Assembly (NCBI GenBank): GCA_029706075.1
Contig: JAINUG010000114.1
Span: 2,976,001-3,040,000 of the forward strand
DNA length: 64,000 bases
Origin: Aldrovandia affinis
Lineage: Eukaryota; Chordata; Actinopteri; Notacanthiformes; Halosauridae
Direction of reading: 5' to 3'
The notes below the pieces were generated by a model. The model was given only the letters and a program-made list of their open reading frames with translations. It made no database searches and was not told where the DNA came from. The position numbers were made by a program, and so were the translations under genes. Positions 35,486 through 61,907 of this stretch are shown in pieces (position 1 is the first letter of the stretch; each line of letters begins with the position of its first letter).

Positions 35486-38400
35486 TCAGGGGCAGCCTTG
35501 TTGCAGTCCCTTAGTCACATGATCACCCAGCCCAGGCGTCCAGGGCACCACCACGCTCTGCATGGTCACCAGCAGTCGTCCTGACTCCGCCTCCTCTGGC
35601 CCGGCCAGCAGGTAGTCCACACCTGGCCAATGGGGAGGGATGGTAAGTGTGTGTTTTACTGTTGAGCTTGTCTGTCAGTAAGAAGGTGATTTGAAGATGA
35701 ACCAGTAAAGCCATTAAGTCAGTTGATTCATATATATTGCAGTAAGATGTATGGAAGAATGAGGTGTTGTGCAGGATGTGGATGATGGGGAGACTTTGGG
35801 GAGCAGTGTTGGAGGATGGATGTGTAATTTGGCTATGTGTGTCAGGGTACCTGGATTGAGTATGGGACAGGTGCACCCCCGGCTAGTCCAGGACAAGGGG
35901 TACAGGGTGTGGGTGCCCTGGAACAGCGACACCTGTCCCGACCGCAGGATCTTGCGCACCTTCACCTCCACCTCTGCGTGACTCCCCTTGTCATGGGCTG
36001 ACATGACAGTGGCCTTGATAACTGTTACACACACGCACACACACGAATGCACAATCAATGTACGTCAGTATCTAATGCGCTGTTTACTCACCTCAATATA
36101 GACTAATTAATACAGAAAACTTTGCTCACATCAGTATACCAAAATATCTATCTATAGATGAACTGTCATAGCTCACATCAATACACCCAATAATGCATAA
36201 TCCATTCATCAGTACATTATGATGTGACATTCCTATCAATAAAGTTATGCTAGTAATGTATCACATCCATACAAACAAAATGATGTACTGCTAATTCAAA
36301 ACTCATGTTCATAGCATTGGTGCGCAACATCACACCATCATGTCATGCCATCACACAAAGACCATGCTTTCATCATACCGTAGGCATACTTCATCTTGCA
36401 GAGATCAACAAAGCTTCTGAATGTCTTCTCCTTACAGCTGCATTTCCCTGGCAGGAAGAGAGGATTCAGTCACCATTATAACACCTATCTCACCACAGCA
36501 CCCTCTCACTGGTGCATCTAGCTGCACTGTCATGTCGTATTTTGTCAAAATGTACAACATGGATTTCCTCACACTCTGCCAGCCGCCAGCCCAATCTCAC
36601 TCCATTTACCTGCGTAATGAAGAGCAGAGACTGCAAGTTCCTCTGACCACACCCTCTCGTTCTCATTGGTCAGGCTGTGTGCGATGTCAGGGATCTTTCC
36701 TCCAACAGGAATGTTGAAGATCACCTCACGGGGGTCACTATCAATCGGCAATAGTATGGGTTATGGTAGGGAACTTAAAATCTCCACTGTGAACTGGGTG
36801 GACTATTGCTGTTGGGCTTACAGTTGTCTTCTGCTCATAATCAGGTTTCTGGTCTGTCAAACTCGCATCTTAATTACTGATTGGCTGTTCATTTCTCTAC
36901 ATAAAAAAATAATATATAAACTTTTTTCCATTACTTTCACCTTGCATGCTGCTTATTTAATTATGACAAAGGTTTTGTGAGTTGAAAACAGTTTCTTATG
37001 TGAAAGTATTGAACCTCAACTTTTTACCTTTATTGTGGGCGTGCGCATGTGCGTAAGACCAACCTATCCTGACAGTGCCCTGTGATGGGGTCACAGTTCT
37101 GCGGGCACACACAGGGCTTGCACCCCTCCTCCCCAAAGCCCCAGTGTCCAGGGAGACAGTGGCTGCAGTTTGTGCCACCGACCCCTGGCCTGCACTGGCA
37201 GTGCCCGCTACGGGGATGGCACCATGCCCCTCGACCCTCACCCCTGCCCCTGGCTGGCAGTGAGCCTACGCGGTCACACCAGCATCCTGAGACAGTGAGA
37301 GAGGAGGAGGAGGGGGAGGATGGCAGCATAAAGGGCCCTAACCAGCAGGTCAGTGGAGCTTATGCTGTCATACATCTGCTTTGCATATGTATAATATTGT
37401 CAGTGTTATAAAAAAAATAAAAAAATTACAAACACAATATTATGGTTTCTTTACACAGGGTTTCGAACCAACTTACGAGTTATGAGACCTTCCAAGGTGT
37501 GCAAAAAAACAACTACACTACCGGTCAAGTTTTAGAACACCCCCGTTTTCCAGTTTTTACTGAAATGTAAGCAGTTGAATAACCTGAAATGGTACAAAGG
37601 TAAGCAGTACAGAGGTTAAAAAAAAAGTTTAGGTTACCAAAAACAGAAAAATAATGTACATTTTTTTGGCAGTGAGTAGTTTCCTACACCATCAAAAGGC
37701 ACTTGGAAACTGACAGGAAGAGGTCTGGCAGACCCAAAGCCACAACAAAATCAGAAGACAAGTTTCTGAGAGTCACAGCTTGCGTGATAGGCGGTTCACA
37801 GGACAACAGCTTCAAGCACAGCTTAACACTGGTCGAAGTAAGGAAGTCTCAGTTTCAACTGTGAAGAGAAGACTTCGAGCTGCAGGTTTGACCGGTCGAG
37901 TGGCAGTAAGAAAGCCATTGCTAAGATGGCAAAATAAGAAAAAACCTTGCCTGGGCCATGAAGCACCGCCAGTGGACTACTGAAGACTGGAAGAAGGTCT
38001 TATGGACCGATGAATCAAAATTTGAAATTTTGAAAGGTTTTTGTAGGCCGTCGAGTAGGCAAAAGGATGGTTCCTCAGTGTGTGACACCAACTGTCAAAC
38101 ATGGAGGAGGAAGCGTGATGGTCTGGGGATCTAGAGTCGGCGACTTGCACAGAGTGACTGTTAACCCATTACTTGTTCCCTGAAAAGGGCCTTTTTTTAA
38201 TGACTCTGAAATTTACATTACTTTTCAGTTTTTGGTAACCTAAACCTTTTTTTAACCTCTGGCAGTTTACTGCTTACATTTGTACCATTCCAGGTTATTC
38301 ACTGGACTTGAACTGCTTAAATGTAAGTAAAAACTGGAAAATGGGGGTGTTCTAAAACTTTTGACCGGTAGTATGCAAAAAAATGTTTTTTTTGCTTGAC

Positions 38401-41400
38401 ACCAACAATATATTTCAGTGGCTCCCAAACAGAGTTACCAAGTCACTGGTGGGGTCCTGGGTCACAAGATAATGTGAAAAACACATGGTGCATGCCTTCC
38501 ACTGACATCCACATTTATAAAATGAAACACTGCACTGGCTATTATTCTAACATTCTTTTCCCATATTTGAGCATGTTATGTGTATTCAGGGCTGGAGGGT
38601 CTCAGAAAATGTTTTTGTTCATTAAGTGGGTTCTTGGCTTGGAAAGTTGGGCACTCTTGATACACGTGCACATACACATAACTCTCCTGAAACTAATTAA
38701 AGTTTTCTACAGGAAGTTATGCTGAACTATAAATTCTATTGTTTTTCTTCAACTTTTGTTACTCTTATTCCCTTGCTCCCTCCCTCCCACTCTGACTCAC
38801 GTGTGCAGGCGTAGGGAGAGTTCTGGGGCGTAGGGGGGCGGCGATGGTAGCCCGGGCGACAGCGTTGGCACCTGCGGCCCTCTGTGTTGTGGCGACAATT
38901 GTTGCAGGTCCCCCCACTGGTCCCGCCTGAGGAGTGCCACACCCGCATGGAGAAGTAACAGGTGTCTGCATGACCGTGACACTCGCACTCTGAAGGAGAA
39001 ATAGAGGTGAGTAAATGAAAGGCAGGACAAGAGGGGAACAACCTGCCCTTTCTTGTCTGAAGGTTAATGCCTGTCCTGCACCTGTTATATAACACAAGTC
39101 GCAGCAGCGGGACGCAATTGGCCTCGTCCCGCTAGAAGTAGGGTGGGTTTAACTTGGCCAGGGTTCCTCGGGTTCTGCTACATGAGTTCCTTCCAATGAC
39201 ACCACAGGCGCCCACAAGCTACCAGCTGTCATCATTGAGAGATATGCCTCTCCTCTAGGCACTAGCTCTCTTTGAAGTAGTGTGGAATGTGGTGTAAAAT
39301 TGTCCCTGGCTCACAGGGAAGATCATTGAGAGAGTTCAGATGCTTCAGCTGCAGTGCTCCTGGTGTGGGTGCAGGTGGCATAGCAGTAACAAAATGTGTA
39401 GAAAAAGAAAAGGGGGGGCTCAAATCAAAGCACAGATGGCTGCACTCGAAGGACAAGACGGTGACCCCAAGTGACCTTTTTTTGACCCCACAGTTGACCC
39501 CTGCTGGGTGGACACTCACTCTGGCAGGGGTGGGGCTCGCCACTGCTGCCATTGGCGGGACGCCAAGGGCGGTCGTTGTAGAGCGGGGCACACTTCTCAC
39601 AGTGCTCACCTGCTGTGTGGTGAAGACACATGCACCTGCCGTGCACCTGTAAGATGACGCAATATACACTAAATACACTTGCCCCTAACCTGTAACACAG
39701 TACAATGCACACTGAACACTCCTGCCTTGAAGCTGTAATGGCACATAATACATACTGTGCACACCTGCCCCACACCTGTAATGTCACAAAACAAACTACA
39801 CACCTGCCCCTGATGTGTAACCGAGCACACTTGCGATACAACACAAGACACACTGGGCCAGATTTACTAAAGGATTTCCAATGCAAAAGCAGTCGCTACA
39901 AGGTCGCAATATCTATGTCGGGTTTACGAAACAGTTGCAAAGAGTCCAGTCGCTATTAGGATGTAATTTGCGGGGGTTAAGTCTCTTCGCGAAATATAAG
40001 CAGTTCAAGTCTAGTGAATAATCTGAAATGGTACAAAGGGAGGCGGTAACCTGCCAGAGGTATTACAAAAAAAAAGTTTCAGTTACCAAAAACGGAAAAA
40101 TAATGTACATTTCAGAGTTATAAAAAAAGGCCCTTTTCAGGGAACAAGTAATGGGTTAACGTGGGTTAACAGTCACTCCAGCAAAAGAGCCCCAGACCAT
40201 CACGTTTCCTCCTCCATGTTTGACAGTTGGTGTCACACACTGAGGAACATTCCTTTCACCTACTCAACAGCCTACAAAAACCTTTCAAAATTTCAAATTT
40301 TGATTCATCAGTCCATAAGACCTTCTTCCAGTCTTCAGTAGTCCACTGGCAGTGCTTCATGGCCCAGGCAAGCCTATTTTTCTTATTTAGCCATCTTAGC
40401 AATGGCTTTCTTACTGCCACTTGACCTGTCAAACCTGAAGCTCGAAGTCTTCTCTTCACAGTAGAAACTGAGACTTCCTTACTTCGACCAGTGTTAAGCT
40501 GTGCTTGAAGCTGTTGTCCTGTATCTTCTGATTTTGTTGTGGCTTTGGGTCTGCCAGACCTCTTCCTGTCAGTTTCTTCCAGTTCCCAAGTGCCTTTTGA
40601 TGGTGTAGGAAACTACTCACTGCCAAAAAAAATGTATATTATTTTTCAGTTTTTGGTAACCTAAACTTTATTTTATTTGATTTTTTACCTCTAGCAGTTT
40701 ATCACTTCCCTTTGTACCATTTCAGGTTATTCACTGGACTTGAACTGCTTAAATTTCAGCAACAACTGGAAAATGGTGGTGTTCTAAAACTTTTGACCAG
40801 TAGTGTGTACCTGGGGTGAACGCTCTAAAACGGGCGAGATTTTGTAAATTGTGTTGATAAGTATTCCGTCTGATTTACTAAAGCATGCCTTAACTGTGAC
40901 ACTCCTCTTTGCGTGACAATTTTAAGAACTCTTGAAACCAGGCGGTATTTTATGAGCACTGATATCACCTAGGTATTTCACAATTCCTGCTTTGTATTGT
41001 GCTTTCCAATGTGCTAGTCGCTGTCCCAGCGATGAAAAACAAATAATCACAAATGTTGTTGCAAAGTACCCCGGTTCATGTCACGGTCGCTTTATTTTCA
41101 GGAATACCTGTATCTACAGACTGCTAAATCCATTCCATCAAGGGACTGGTGTTGGAAATGTCGCCCCACGGGGGAGGGGAGAGGGTGAGCTGGCTTGAGA
41201 CCGCTGTGAAGCACATAAGGAGTCTCTAGAACGCGTGAATTCCGTTTCGAGGGAAGCGGAGTTCGCTGCCCTCTGAGAATTGGCTTGCCTTGTAGAGATG
41301 AGCGGCGGACCCATGTGGGGAGGGTTAATCAAAAATAAATCAAATCAAATCAAAACAAATATATATATTTTCAACCTGAATTTGAAATATCTATTCTATG

Positions 41401-47172: not shown

Positions 47173-48407
47173 ATATATATATCTCCCAGTACATGGTGGG
47201 GTGGTATAATCAAATAATTCATTTTTATTCATAAAAGTTTATTTGTATGAATTAATGATTTATAATGATCATAAAAAGGATCATAATAATTACTATTTAA
47301 AATGGATTATGGACCTCTATGACTCATTAGAGATGGAGAGAGTTTATTAATTTGGTCATGCCTGGTGCTGTGGAATCTGTCTCACTATCTGTCTCTCTTG
47401 GTCAGTGTGTTTAGGTTTGTTTGTTTTCTGACCACCCTACCTTCCTAGCTCTGCCATTTCCTCTGTACTCTCATAAATTTGGGCTAGTGTAAATGGTGCA
47501 TGCTTTTGACCCCTGTCTCTCCCTCTGCTTCCCTAAGCCTAGCCTCCTCCATTGCACCTCAATTTCAGCTGAGAGGGTTTGAAAGTTGCATGCCAGCCTT
47601 TTTGTAGCTTTTGGTTCCCGTCGCTCCTACCTCCGTGCACACTCCCTTACCACATCAGGGCTCCAATGCTTTTTGTTGGCTTTGTTTCCCTGGTTTGTGG
47701 GTGCCTAAGGGAGAAACTGGCCACCATATCTCAAAATAGGTTTTCGATCCCATCTGTGCTGTTTGGGGATCCAGGGTTTCCTTCCACTGTTTCTGCTGTC
47801 CTTCCCCTTGAGACATTTATATCCGGACATCACAGTGAGGCGGCTTCCTTACCAGAAACACCTCCAGAGAAACAGGCAAAACCCATCTGCCAGCCAGAAA
47901 ACACTGCTGACAGCCGGAGGAGCCAAGAGGCTGTTTGAATTTGGTTTTTTTGTAACCGTTATGTGTGACTCCAGCAGGTGGGTCGAGGGTTTGTTTTGGC
48001 CTTTATTGAAGCTGCTAAACATATTCCTCTGTCCTGTAGGACACTGCATGGTAAATGGCCAGTGATGTTTGCCAAAAGGGAACGGATCATTTTCATGTTC
48101 TGTTAGGTCAATGATTAGTGTTTCAGCCGTCTTTGTGGTTAGGATTGGTGGAGCCTTCGGGGGTCAGGGGCCAGTGGACCAATGGGAAAAGTGGAGAGGG
48201 GGGAGAGATGAGCACTGTGCTCAGACAAACTGTCTTTAGTGCCTCACAAGATTCCTGCTGGGTCCAACTGGCTGATGGTCTCTGACTCTGCATCCCCAAC
48301 CTTTTACCACAAGAGGAGAGGGTAAATACCCCACACACGCACACACATTAATGTTACTGTATGTGTGTACATACGTAACCTCAACTTTTTATTTTTTATT
48401 TTTATTT

Positions 48408-49189: not shown

Positions 49190-52100
49190 GTCTTAAATTG
49201 AACTTAATCTTGTATAGCCAGCACCACCCAAGTAAGAGAAGTACGATTGTGCACAAAAATTGTCTTCCTCTTTTTGAAATGTGTGTGTACTGTATATATA
49301 TTTATATAGCATGCAGTATATAGCCAACTTTTCAGGAAATTATTATTAAGTTGTTGAGCATTCTTGACTTCCCCAGCTTCACCAGACACCAGTTCATGAC
49401 TTTATATGCAGCAGTTCTCGTTTCAGATTTCAGCCACAACTCATATCGACTGAGTTCACCTGAGAACATTAATGTCAGAAGATGCCAACTTCTTTTAAAT
49501 TTCACTTATTCGTTTGGTCTGAAAATAATTTGTGTTGGGGTTCAATTCATGTTATGAACTTTGCAATTCTGGAGAAGTTCAGAGATGCCGCCAAGGATAC
49601 TAAAGAAAATAACTAAAAGAAAAACAAATTCTCGATCAATATAAAACAACAGCCTCTGTTTGAGTCATGTTATTTCATTGTTGTTTTTGGGCTATTAAGC
49701 AAAACGATTTTGTCACTAAATGGACAAAGATGTCTTATGTTTTTTTACCAAGACTGCTTACCGGTGTGAGATGCAGCCTGACCTTGTTTGTGATTATAGA
49801 CCAATAAGTAAGAGTGAGAGGAAGAGAGGAAGAGAGGGGGAAGAGAAGTGTTCGTGAGCGGTACGTGTGACAGTCTGTCCTACTCAGCTTTCCTTCAGGA
49901 ATGCCGTGTGATACTTCCTTCCCTCTTTCTACACCTTACTGACCCCAGAGTTGGCCCAGGAGCTGCAGCAGTATGGACATGTCTACTTGTACTGCTTCTG
50001 CCCCCCCAAAATACACATGAGTTGAACCCTGACACACCCTGATGCAATACCCTGATACTCAGACGCCCTAACAAGCACCGGGTACACGATGAACACGGCG
50101 AACCTCTCATTAATTCACAGGTATACCCTGATGTACACAAACACTGTGTTAAGAGTACCTGAATTGCACACATTGGAGCCTGGTGTTTCAGCAGGTGTCA
50201 TTTACATCTCTGCAGATCACTGAGGTCACTTCGCAGTGATCTGTGATAGGAACGTGATTAGTCACTATCTTCTATTGGAACTGTGAGTTTGCCATCAGAG
50301 TTGGTAAATATATGGAGTAGCATTTCTTGGTGTTTGCCCTGCCTTACTGTACTAGGTATACGTGTACATCATGATCAGCATTTATTCTTTTCAAAGAACT
50401 GCATTTGACTGTATACTATATGAACTCTAATAAAACACAAGTCTGGTTGTTCATAAAACATGAAATACAATCACATATTTTTGGAAATGACATGATTTCA
50501 TCATACGGTATCATAGGTCCTTATTAGCTTTAACATGGTGTAGTCCCACAGGGATTTATTTTCTCCATACACCCAGCCTTTTCTCTTCTCTCTTCCTTTA
50601 TCCTTTTCTATCCTGTCTATCCATCTTCCTTGGACCCTAATCTCTCTCTCTTTGTTCTTCTTAATTTCTCTCCTTTTATTATCTATTTCACTACATTCCA
50701 TTCTGCCCTCTATCTTTCTCTCACCCTGTCTCTCTTCTCATCCTTCTCTCCTTTTCTCCTCTCAGCTATCTCTCTCCTTACCCCCATCTTTACCCACACT
50801 CTCTCGCCCCCTCTGCACCCCAGGCAAACAACAGTAAATTGGCCTAAAGATTCCCCTTCATCTTCAAGCATCAGTATTCCTCTGTGGTCTCCTTCCACAG
50901 CTGCAGCACGCCTTATGCATATTTTTTGTAAGCCGTCATAGTAATCCATTTACGGGAATTAGCTGTGTGTGATATTTGCAGTTTCAGGTGTCAGAGTTTG
51001 ATGATTCTGCTGTTTAAGGGACTGATTTAAATTTCAATCTCAAAGATTATTTATTTTTATAAGTGCACATGGTTTGGTCTTGTGTATGTGTTAGTTGTAT
51101 AACACATGCTATTATGGTGTAGTGATCACAGTATATTAATGTTAATGTTTCAATGTACTCTGAAATTAAAGCATAGAACAAACAATTGGAGATAAAAAAA
51201 TATATCAAGGAAACGTTTTGTTTAACAAAATTTAATCTACATTTTTGACTCCTCAAAGTAGCCCCCTTTTGCAGATATAACAGCTGAACACACTTGTGGC
51301 ATTCTTTCTACAATGGAAATCAAATATTGTTCGGAAAGTTCTTCCCAACACTGTTACAGAAGTTCCCACAAATGTGTTGCACTTGTAGGTTGCTTTGCTT
51401 TCACCCTTCTGTCCAGTACATCCCTGTGTATGCGTCCAGTATATGTGTGCTTCTACACATGACCATGTGTAAAGCAGTCTTTGTGTTTTCCCCACCCCTT
51501 TAGGGCGTAACCCATTGATCAGTGACCCTGCCGCATGCACCAAGCAGCTGCTATCCTACACGTGATCATGAACAACCTGGACCCTGCTATGGTGCAGGCA
51601 ACCCCGCCCTCACACTGCCCTGCCTCTAGTACCTTACCTGCACTGCGTCAGCATTGGTGTGACTCTCCCCTCTGTCTCAGTTTCTACAGGAGCTGATGAC
51701 CGCTGGACGGAAAGGAAAGCAACTGGGCCCAGATAACACAGAGGCGGTGGCCTCGATATTTGCTGTCATACTGAGCCCAGGTAACACAGAGAAGGTGGTC
51801 TCAATATTCATAGTGATCAGTTATGTGTATGGGAGATAAAGTAACATTCACACTAATGTATGTGGGCTGTTTGAAAAGTATAAAGTGAGTTATAGGGGGT
51901 GTTTTAAAGTGAGATTATGGATGTGTTCTGTTATGTACACGTGCAGCTCTGGCTGGTGCTGTACTATCTGAGTGAGATATCACAGGAGCAGACTCTGGTG
52001 ATGTACAGCGGACACCCCCTGGGCCTCTTCCCCTCGCTTTGTAATCACCAACGGAATGGTGAGAGCTCTTTCCATCTCTCTGTCAATCCGTCTCTCTGCC

Positions 52101-53109
52101 TCTGTCAGTTTTTCTTTCTGTTGGTCTCAATGCCTCTCTGCCTCAATGCCAATCTACTTATTGCACCTCTGTTCTGTTGTCTTGATTCTGTATTTTGTGG
52201 CAGTAGCCATATGTTTACAACTGATGTTTTGTCTGATATACTCTTATTTTCTTTCTTTCTTCCCATCTTCCATACTTTTCCTCTCTTCTTGTCTTCCCTC
52301 TCTCTGTCATATCCTATCTTCTCCTCTGTTGTCGTCTCATTTTCTCTCCACGGCTCTCAAATGATCCCCAACTACTCCTGTTTGCCTTGGGCATTCCAAT
52401 GTGAGGACTTCCTCTGCTTCCTTTCTTATTTACTTTCTGTCCTTGCATTACTTTTGAAGACACAAAAAAAGGTTTGCTCAGGATATTAGAGGGATTGAAT
52501 GACATTACTATGCCCTATACATTTTTGTGAAATGTGAATTGTTTTTCCAAGTCCTGGCTCTTGTGAATTTTACGATGGATCTTGACTTTCTGAACTTCAC
52601 AGAGGTAAGAGCTCTAAGAATTTCACAGCAGGCGGGAAAACAAAGCATTTAAAAATGTAAAAAGCTGTGTACTCAACAAACTGTTTGGCTACACTATTCA
52701 GCTGAAATGTGAAACATATGGAAAAATGGGTTGAGAGCCATTGTGAAAAATGCATTATGGTGAGAGAATGGCTTGAGTAGCGCCAACCCACAGCTAATAA
52801 AGCAGTTTCACGACTCACAAAAAAATAACGAGCAAAATGGGAACACTCACTTGAGCTGACCTGAGGCATAAGCCTCTTTAAAGAAAAGAAAACAAGAAAC
52901 AAAGAATCTGTTCACAAATCTCTCTGGCATTGGTGATCTTCTCGTCATAGTTTCTCAAAAGCCACCTGGCTGTGAGAGGTCAAATGCCAAGCAGGACATG
53001 ATCACGATGATCACGATGATCACGATACCTGCCCTTATGAATTTATCTTGAATAGCAATGCAGTCATGTGGCAAACATGATGTAAACGAGAGTTTTGACA
53101 CCCCCACAC

Positions 53110-53560
53110 CCCTGTGCAGTTGAATGTTTTAATAACATAACATAACATAACATAAGGGGAAGACGAGAACAGGCCATTCAGCCCAACACTGCTCGTCCAT
53201 TCCTACCACTAATCTGCTCACATGCTTAGTTTATCCAGAGGCTAGAGTGTCTAAAACTGGATCGAGCCTAGCCTTGAATACCCCTAGTGTCTCAGCCTCT
53301 ACTACATGTCCAGGCAAGCTATTCCACGCATTGATCACTCTCTGTGTGAAAAAATATTTCCTAGTGTCCGTGTGAAATTTACCCTTTGTCAGTTTCCATT
53401 TATGCCCCCTCGTTCTGCTAACCGAACTCAACTTGAATAATTTCCTAAAATTCACTTTGTTAATTCCTTTAATAAATGTAAAAGCCTCAATCAAATCTCC
53501 CCTAAGTCTCCTTTTACTAAGCTTGAACAGTCCAAGCATCTCTAGCCTTTCCTCATAACA
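53110..53560 (-). mobile_element. CR1-like LINE 3' end in the uroc1 relic
   Basis: The complement encodes the RT C-terminal tail KRRLRGDLIEAFTFIKGINK, LSSVSRTRGHKWKL and FFTQRVINAWNSLPGHVVEA, open for about 100 codons. It is followed by a 3' tail of ataac repeats (53131-53155). The 5' portion is missing, a typical truncated insertion. Confidence 0.8.
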
Positions 53561-54039
53561 CTTGTGAATGCTTTCTTTCTGTCGGTCTGTCTCTTCTCTT
53601 CCTCAGGTATGGATAGATGACAGCAGGGAGCTACTGCTACATTGCGCCCCAGGGCATTGTGCATGAATCATAATTGCATCAACAATGAGAACATTCTAGC
53701 ATCGTGTCTTCACTTAGTGAGGGACAGTGTGTTGTGTGAGATGGCTTCGGTCTCTGCCCATGTCATAATGTGTCTCTTCTCATTTCGGATGTCAGAGCAA
53801 ACAGAAACTGGAAACTTCAGCAAAAGAGCCACTTGTTTGATCCACCATACGTCCCGTTTCAAATTTAGACAATGTTTTCTTTTTTAATCAAGAGGACTCA
53901 TATCTCGGCACATATCTGTATTTTAAAAAAATGGAGTCTGGGTTTCTTCAAAGAAATGACATAGGCTTCTTCATGTCCATAAAAGGGCTCCCCATGAGTG
54001 CAAGCTGGCCCCTGTAGTTGTAGGTTTGAACCTTGGCCT

Positions 54040-54360
54040 TATTAGCTGACTATGACTGGGAGTCTGCAGCGGTGAGATACAATTTGCCTCGTCACAGTAG
54101 GGCGGGTTTAAGTTAGCCAGGATTCCTCAGATCGTTGCTGCAGTGGTTCTGCCCAATGACGCGCCACAGACTATCAGTTGTCACCGGTGAGAGATGTGCT
54201 GGATAGGCGCTTTCTCCTGAAGTACTGTAGCGTAGTACCTGTAGTGTGGAAAGTAGTCACACTGGCTCATGGGTGAGCGCAGCAGAGGAGTGCACATGCT
54301 TCGGCTGCAGGTGACACACCAGTGATGGTTGCCAATTCCACATTGGATAGAAAAATAAGA
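54040..54360. repeat. Dispersed SINE-like repeat, copy 3
   Basis: It shares tagggcgggtttaagttagc, gagagatgtgctggatagg-type and cggctgcaggtgacac blocks with the copies at 39100 and 11190, and ends near attccacattggatag. Confidence 0.6.
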
Positions 54361-55867
54361 TCATTGTTTGAAAATAAATGTAGGTGGGATCTACCTAACC
54401 ATTGGGTAGGGCTTGCAGAATTCAATGTTTATTTTCATCACCAGCACAATACAAACTTTTCCTTCAAAGATTTGATGGCTCTCTAATCACCACAATACTG
54501 TTTAATTTTGTTGTCAAATCAAATACTGGAGCTAATTTTTGAAGAGTTATGCAGTGCTCGACCTCACAATAAATTTTAAATGAAATGCCTTCAGCAGTGC
54601 ACATCTGCGTGCGTGCGTGCGTGCGTGTGTGCATGCGTGCTGTTTAGTTCTCTCTGTGTTTCCAAAAGGGAGACCAAGCGCTCCAGTACACCCCTTAGTA
54701 TGGGTTACTATGGCAACACTGTGGGCCTATGGTAAGTAAGCTTGCGTGGGAGGGACGTCTCCTCTTTCTGTGCTTACATTGAAATATTTAGACTATGCGC
54801 TTTCTTCTACCTGACGATATGTTAACCTGGGGTCAGTGTGATCCTCAAGACCTTATGGCACCTATTCCCAGACAGCTGACTGGCTACACAAACATTTTCA
54901 CATTTTGTCTTACCAGATTGTTATCACAAAGGCCAAGTGGGATCTCAAATATATCTTAAAGTTCCTGTAGATTATATGAGTTAATTCAGCGCCTGTCTGC
55001 GCAGTTGTAAGTGCACAAGTCAAAGGTCAAGAGTGCAGATCAAAGGTCCGCTAGCTCAGGTTACACATGCAGGGCGACTTGCATCGTCTCATCCTGACAG
55101 CTGGTGGTGCGCTGGGGCACTGTGGGCCAGCTCATTCTTGGCAATAGCACGGAATTCCTTCCCCCAGACAAGGGGAATAATGAGCACTGACAGTTTGCAA
55201 CACTGAGGTCCTTTTACACAGCTACTGCCATCAGGCCGAAGGGTATCACTATTTCCAGGGTAGGAATAAAGCCCCAAAGAGCTTTATCCCAATGTGTCTG
55301 TGTCTGTATTTAACTGCCTCTGATTGAGCTGTGACACACACTTCCACTTGGACAATACATTTAAATGAGAAATGTGGTGGCATGACTTGTGAAGTGAAAT
55401 GATGATGTCATTGTTGTTTCTCTGCCTATCAGGAAGAGTTTGGTGAAGGAGTATGGCCACAGGTGAGCAGCTGGTGAATCTGGGCTCGTCTGGGTTCAGG
55501 GGCTTGGTACACCGTTGTCTTGTTGACGCCTTGTCTGTGGTGCGTTTTTTGTGTGTTTTTCCCCCCTGCAGGGATATTTTCCCCTGGCCCTCGGTTCCTT
55601 CTGCTGGGTCTGCATGTCTGGTGAACCTCATGATCTGGTGCAGATTGATGACATTGCTGCCACTGTGCTGGAGGAGATCAGCACCACAGGTGAGGGGAGA
55701 GGGGGGTCGGGGAGGACAAGAGAATGTCAGAACATAGTGTACACAAATGTATAATAGTCAATCGCCACATAGTCCACTCCAGCCATATAAATGCATACTA
55801 TTTTTTTATCTTTTGTACTAGATAAGCTAAAAGATGGGTGTGTGAATGCACCTGTGTGTATGAGTGT

Positions 55868-55919: not shown

Positions 55920-58015
55920 GGATAATTGCAGTGAAGTTCTTTGATCTGAGAGGATGAATGACACAGATTAAACTGTCAGGCAAGTGGCTGATGGAGGCCA
56001 GATGAAGCAATATGACAGAGGAAAGCCGCAATGGAGCCCTTGGGCTGACTGCCAAGGCAATAATGTGCTCTGTGTGTGTGTGTCAATGCGCGCGTGTGTG
56101 TGCACATGTGTGTGCATGCAATGGTGTGTGGGTGTGTGAGTCCATTTTTAGTTTTAAACTTTTGCATATGGCTTCAAATCCTTTTAATTAAAACATTCTT
56201 AGCTCTGTAGTAAAATGGAATGGCAGGAATTTTGAAATGAAAGAAAGCATGTTTTTTGATTGAAGAAGTCTGGGGTGATTGGCAGTTGAGGAACATGTAA
56301 CTTAACCCTCAGATAAGATAATGTCCAACAGAGACCATTACCACCCCCCCACACACACATACACACGCATGCACAAACGCATCAATCAAGCAAATATAGA
56401 ATTTCATACATTCATAGATCTAATCTATAGATTGCATCTAAGAAAAGCCCGGCTTTTTTGTATTTGGCATAACAGTACGTTTTAACTTGTTATAAATTAT
56501 TTGAAATGTTTCCTCCCTTATATTACATCCCAAAGCGATGTTTTGTGTTCACTGTGGAAACCAGACACTGTAATTCAGCTCCCATAACCCACTATGACTA
56601 TCCAGATCCAGTGCTCTGTAGCCAATCATTCACTCACACTTTTAGATTGTGCGTTAAACAGAAGAAGAATGAATGTAATGTAATGTTTGCTGTGTGCACA
56701 GGCTTGACCTGTTGTTTCGCTACTGCTGTTCCTGTCCCCTGGCGTCTCCTCATTCATGTTCCCTGTATTAGTGTTCTCTAGTATGCATACTATGCTCTGC
56801 CATGTATGCTGGTGAGTACTGTCCACCAAGTATGCAATTGTGCACACTTTAGAGGTGGGACATACTTTCACCTTGCCTTGAATTATGACCTATATGTATA
56901 TTGAGTACATTTATTGAACTCCCTTGAAGTATTTCAAAACAGGCCATCAGTATCTCTTCTAATATTTGTGCAGTATCTTGATAAAGTATGTGTCAATACA
57001 TGCTACAATTTTCAGTCCTAAATATGCAAAAAGTCAGACTAATTTCTGTGCATACTCTCTCTGACATACTTGGGTTTTGGAACAGTACTTGATAGGTTAG
57101 TGACAAGCTTCTGTACTTCTAAGCGCAGCATGCTACAAGTAGTATGCAAGTTTGCATTTTTTAACACAGTCTGTGGTCCCTATATTAATGTTCCCACCTT
57201 ATTGAACTTCTCCAATGTTTGTGTTCCCTGTATTAGTGTTGCCCCAGCATTAGTACTTCCCTCATTTTGGAATTGGATTGGATTAGTCTAGGCTTGGGTT
57301 TGGACCTGGGATCATTGAGTAACAACAGACCTGATGCAGAGGAGACAGTGGTCCAAATTGCTGCTCACCTTCATCAACCAGCCCTGTTCGTTTCTCTTTT
57401 TCAAAGGTGCATCATCCATCACTTCAGAAATGCATCGCTTTAAGTATGACTTAATATTCCCCCTGTTGGTGTCTCCTAATTAGTGCCTCCTATGTGGCTG
57501 CAGCCCCCCAGTACAAAGTGGCGTGTGTGACGATGGTCAGGGAGAGCAGGGGGGGGGGGTCGTTCACTGCGGGCCAGTGCCTGCTCTCCGTCGGCAGAAC
57601 GTATTTCTTCTTTATGACCCTGCGGTTGTTAGATCTTTCAGGTTTATGTGCTGTTTGCTCCCCCGTTAAGTCACAGTGAGTAACGAGGGAAATGAGGAGG
57701 AGGGACCAAACGCAGCTGCGTCGGGGGCTGATTCTTTGTCCCGCCACGTCCATTTCCCTTGTAGTCTGCCATTCCCCCTTTAAAACCATGTTTTTTACAA
57801 GCATACCAAGGGTCCACCTGTGACTTGCCTTGACCTGAGCCGACCACTTCAATGTCTCAGGAGACGGGGGCTTCAATCAAAATGGACTCGCCTTCCTGTC
57901 CTCGTTAGAAACGAATACCCCATAGCGATGGCTTCTCACAACTCCAGCGTCTTTCCTTCTCTCATAAAATCCGCAGCCACCATGCACCTAGGGTATGATG
58001 TGCCATTAGTTTCAT
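55920..58015. other. Stretch downstream of the uroc1 relic, no clear gene
   Basis: A piece at 57490-57522 reads VAAAPQYK, which could be a remnant of the next uroc1 exon, but the resemblance is too short to call. Otherwise only microsatellites. Confidence 0.5.
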
Positions 58016-61694: not shown

Positions 61695-61865
61695 GAGGAT
61701 CAGTGTTCTCTCTCACAGACTGAGGGTCACAGTCCATGTCTCTCACAGACTGTGTGAGGGTCACAGTGCTCTCTCTGAGACTGTGAGGGTCACAGTGCTC
61801 TCTCACAGACTGTGTGAGGGTCACAGTGCTCTCTCACAGACTGTGTGAGGGTCACAGTGTTCTCT
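61695..61865. repeat. Minisatellite, about 37-bp unit
   Basis: Imperfect units of ctctctcacagactgtgtga gggtcacagtg, about five in a row, with shortened variants. It is not a CRISPR: units are adjacent with no unique spacers. Confidence 0.88.
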
Positions 61866-61907
61866 CTGTGGGGGATGCCTTTCGGGGAGATACATGGGTA
61901 GCACTGC

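Follow-up and report, generated by a model that had tools for sequence, protein, structure and literature searches.

Remains of a urocanase gene and its surroundings

The window, i.e., the whole stretch of 64,000 nucleotides of the Aldrovandia affinis genome that was analysed here (C158:2976001-3040000), contains three genes that we take to be ip6k, sec61a1 and chchd4 and, after them, the ruins of uroc1, the gene for urocanate hydratase. Pieces of the three neighbours in the window matched the Pfam families IPK, SecY and CHCH, with SecY scoring just below its cut-off (32.0 vs 32.2 bits). A gene with laminin-EGF domains (37033-39684, minus strand; found with Pfam) lies between chchd4 and the relic, and a long transposase frame of 320 codons, presumably of the Tc1-like type, stands at 687-1646.

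The relic exons were located with tblastn, for which the query was the human UROC1 sequence and then the full-length copy of the same genome (the twin, see below). Both queries recovered pieces of the relic and a control with reversed targets, done for the twin query alone, was empty at E<=1, so that the ruined gene reported in the initial annotation has proved real and its homology to urocanase is above chance. The relic spans from about 48.2 kb of the window to C158:3041011, 1 kb beyond the window end, and 13 of the 20 uroc1 exons are recognisable in it (Table 1). In local DNA alignments with the twin exons, exons 2, 3, 4, 5, 7, 9, 10, 11, 14, 18, 19 and 20 were placed, each beating all 20 dinucleotide shuffles; exon 6, counted as a weak fourteenth, received no support from DNA alignment in either the whole region or its own interval. 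For exon 1, alignment over the whole region put a minus-strand match at 55419-55504, likewise above all shuffles, ahead of the accepted place, which took second rank; the accepted remains stop at 48321, exactly at the exon end, and the GT donor is kept there (gtaaat follows). Exons 8, 12, 13, 15, 16 and 17 were not found by DNA alignment over the whole region and the expected intervals. Among them is the NAD-contact exon (exon 8), as had been claimed; one candidate match for it (p<=0.03) was discounted because it falls in a tandem repeat.

When compared with animal UROC1 (Pfam PF17391/PF01175), the relic is alike in exon 5, where Urocanase_N matches positions 51920-52036 above the curated cut-off (E 4.7e-7, 30.1 vs 23.2 bits), four other pieces being below cut-off or without a score, and unlike in its stops, deletions and undetected exons. 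The boundaries given previously, 49899-55689, enclose genuine relic but are too narrow, with exon 1, exon 9, exon 18 and, beyond the window, exons 19-20 lying outside them. The exons run in order on one strand inside those boundaries as had been stated, but not in the whole gene, where exon 9 has been inverted and moved downstream of exon 14 (57431-57330).

Table 1. Remains of uroc1 exons. Positions are those of the window unless a contig is named; DNA identities are to the twin exons; interval p-values are lenient, since the wrong strand gave p<=0.015 at the same place for exon 4 and p=0.05 for exon 1.
Feature	Position	Strand	Evidence and remarks
Exon 1 remains	48215-48321	+	last 35 bases clear, earlier part loosely alignable; local alignment in restricted interval p<=0.005
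Exon 2 remains	49895-50021	+	DNA identity 73%, z=46.8; tblastn E 2.5e-9
Exon 3 remains	51504-51597	+	DNA identity 77%, z=26.5; tblastn E 1.1e-7; donor GC
Exon 4 remains with internal deletions	51681-51732	+	81% over 52 aligned bases, z=7.3; interval p<=0.005
Exon 5 remains	51947-52058	+	DNA identity 86%, z=37; both splice sites kept
Possible exon 6 fragment (weak)	52361-52407	+	short tblastn pieces at expected place
Exon 7 remains	53607-53665	+	DNA identity 88%, z=19.5; tblastn E 8.4e-6
Exon 10 remains	54670-54731	+	DNA identity 73%, z=15.2; tblastn E 1.3e-4
Exon 11, first third only	55433-55487	+	80% over 55 bases, z=7.7; interval p<=0.005
Exon 14 remains	55572-55689	+	DNA identity 80%, z=42.9; tblastn E 1.5e-9; both splice sites kept
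Exon 9 remains	57330-57431	-	DNA identity 75%, z=15.6; tblastn E 5.6e-9
Exon 18 piece	61864-61907	+	77% over 44 bases, z=12; interval p<=0.005; three-frame view
Exons 19-20 remains	C158:3040277-3041011		tblastn and local DNA alignment; outside window

All four in-frame stops that had been reported are present, one in exon 2 (TGA), two in exon 3 (TAA and TGA) and one in exon 7 (TAG), and the same is true of the frameshift after the GLFPS motif: exon 5 measures 112 nt, i.e., it carries a 17-base deletion from the frame-keeping length of 129. The twin exon 5 holds a 9-base direct repeat whose spacing, 17, equals the size of this deletion, and slippage between the repeats may have produced it. Donors are lost in exons 2, 4 and 7, exon 7 is also without its 3' end, and the match of exon 18 ends at 61907, from where foreign sequence follows on the 3' side. 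With four stops, a frame-breaking deletion and six of 20 exons undetected, the reading frame is disabled, and the relic is unable to encode the enzyme. The C158 sequence was taken as assembled, and assembly errors might give a living gene such a dead look; we regard this as extremely improbable, because the undetected exons, the inverted one and the one cut by other sequence are far above single-base errors and because many replacement changes have occurred at conserved codons. An interspersed repeat, presumably with a reverse-transcriptase-like tail, occupies 53130-53600 within the relic, 5' of exon 7.

A full-length copy on a second contig

A search of the whole genome (1.22 Gb, 2576 contigs) with the PF01175 profile, combined with a protein search, revealed a second uroc1 locus on the minus strand of C1823 (1454758-1467800). 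The 27 matches listed by the whole-genome protein search are all divided between the twin (20) and the relic (seven), and a third copy was not found among them. The gene model of the twin consists of 20 exons and 675 codons with no in-frame stop, and it is like animal UROC1 in that 522 of 675 aligned residues are identical to the human sequence; its exon ends were set at GT/AG adjoining the tblastn ends, and the 38 of 38 canonical sites are thus partly so by construction. An intact, expressed copy elsewhere would, in the terms of the initial annotation itself, reduce the relic to a lost duplicate, and the twin would place it there, apart from an exon 5 that is one base too long (C1823:1464005-1464134; 130 nt in the assembly instead of the frame-keeping 129).

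This single base deserves attention. The relic exon 5 (112 = 129 minus 17, 17 being the repeat spacing in the twin) supports 129 as the probable ancestral length. If the extra base is real, both copies are dead, the twin having just been lost through a fixed or segregating frame break, and the fish, or some individuals, would be without urocanase. We consider this unlikely while giving it some weight, since the twin exon departs from the old length to which the relic points and no third copy appears among the listed genome matches. The stop-free 675 codons speak against it: in simulation, a sequence that has taken 0.05 neutral substitutions per site is still free of stops with a probability of 0.03, so that any loss of the twin must be recent. 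The presence of hal, amdhd1 and ftcd exons (see below) also argues against it, as does the point that a single stray base over 2 kb of sequence is within usual assembly error. An assembly error is likelier here than a loss of the last copy that is either very recent or still segregating. No frame break was seen in sec61a1, chchd4 and ip6k on either contig, within the exon stretches that were matched (only about 950 codons per contig).

Age of the duplication and time of the loss

The conserved location noted earlier is upheld by the surroundings of the twin, beside which ip6k, sec61a1 and chchd4 recur; the order ip6k, sec61a1, chchd4, uroc1 and the relative orientation are the same on C158 and C1823. 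Three pieces of the laminin-EGF gene had no match within C1823:1430001-1490000 at E<=0.01. Synonymous divergence by NG86 was 0.57 for ip6k (331 codons), 0.72 for sec61a1 (436 codons) and 1.08 for chchd4 (182 codons), in sets that hold a small number of intron codons at the margins of the matches and from which codons with a stop on either side were dropped. For the uroc1 relic and twin, dS was 0.81 and dN 0.155 over 267 codons, in a set made without exons 1, 4, 6, 11 and 20 and in which 14 relic bases belong to both exon 5 pieces and are read there in different frames. The range of 0.57-1.08 across the four pairs points to a probable duplication of the block in a single old event. These are collinear paralogous neighbours of similar age, as for an ohnolog pair from whole-genome duplication, and the event was probably the teleost whole-genome duplication.

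A genome with two copies would also be seen if the relic were a stray or recent copy, i.e., a retrocopy or a recent segmental duplicate, that has decayed. This is very improbable, because the intron-exon structure is kept, ip6k, sec61a1 and chchd4 were duplicated alongside in the same order, and the dS values are not recent. A retrocopy in particular was rejected, since introns still lie between the relic exons, at the boundaries seen in the twin. As its exons end at the twin's exon ends and several splice sites are kept, the relic is an unprocessed pseudogene.

The low dN relative to dS (0.155 vs 0.81) suggests that selection maintained the relic copy over most of its existence and that the loss came late. 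The extent of decay was examined in a trimmed codon set, without the exon 5 overlap and with stops included, which also comprises 267 codons. At 214 of its codons the twin agrees with the human sequence, and 50 of these are changed in the relic, four of them to stops. Simulated neutral decay starting from the twin gave mean changes of 42, 48 and 59, and mean stops of 2.4, 2.6 and 3.5, at 0.10, 0.12 and 0.15 substitutions per site, respectively. The 50 changes are accordingly in line with 0.10-0.15 neutral substitutions per site. The whole relic branch measures about 0.40 (half of dS 0.81), and its neutral share would then lie between roughly one quarter and somewhat more than one third. This dating uses still-readable exons only and is thereby biased toward a recent loss, while replacements made before the loss bias it in the opposite way.

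Bearing on the histidine pathway

We think it highly probable (roughly 85%) that the relic is a duplicate pseudogene, one of a block-duplicated pair, and that the urocanate step is carried by the C1823 twin. The two uroc1 genes would go back to an old duplication of the whole ip6k-sec61a1-chchd4-uroc1 block, and purifying selection would have maintained both through most of their later history; the relic copy would then have been released and have decayed by stops, deletions, the inversion of one exon and the entry of foreign sequence, leaving the presumably working twin to perform the pathway step. The pair is like pseudogenised ohnologs from the teleost whole-genome duplication in that one of two collinear copies decays and the other is kept, and unlike them in that the loss appears late after the duplication, the relic being still largely readable. 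Long retention of a duplicated pair has been reported for omp genes (PMC13378369). Titles and abstract openings of the literature on uroc1 or urocanase in fish or teleosts pointed to no paper on a pseudogenised or duplicated uroc1 in these animals, and zebrafish uroc1 is listed in PMC6822484, in passages that do not discuss copy number.

The conditional proposal that this fish cannot degrade urocanate is not supported, in view of the full-length, stop-free uroc1 on C1823 and of matches to the other pathway genes. Exon matches of hal were found at C1771:517626-522772, with weaker ones reaching 525038, and those of amdhd1 adjoin them at C1771:531828-536003; those of ftcd lie at C1982:169812-181688. 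The name amdhd1 is likely, the matches being under the whole-protein cut-off of the family as single exons would be. As to the suggested check of these genes, exons of the putative hal, amdhd1 and ftcd genes are present in the genome. One match of each contains a stop codon; several twin uroc1 matches also contain a stop where the match overruns the exon edge. A unitary pseudogene, which would mean loss of the pathway, presupposes that no other full-length copy exists, and C1823 carries one, with the one-base frame break as a small doubt.

What looked like the loss of a pathway is thus reduced to a metabolic enzyme gene losing one of its ohnologs at a late stage, a case of an ordinary kind that is well preserved. 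The finding would be important only if the break in the twin exon 5 is real, and this exon is the one exact place that bears on a possible present-day loss of urocanase in a vertebrate. One ohnolog would then be long dead and the last copy freshly broken in this fish or in part of its population, with histidase and the enzymes after urocanase still there; urocanate would accumulate, and the case would show a vertebrate in which the loss of the pathway has just begun.

Extra histidase-like exon matches occur at C1446:2-375 and C534:11649-11750, perhaps belonging to a second hal or to an unmerged haplotype. The FTCD_N exon match (C1982:169812-170000) lies inside an open frame of 1758 codons, which is unusually long for one exon.
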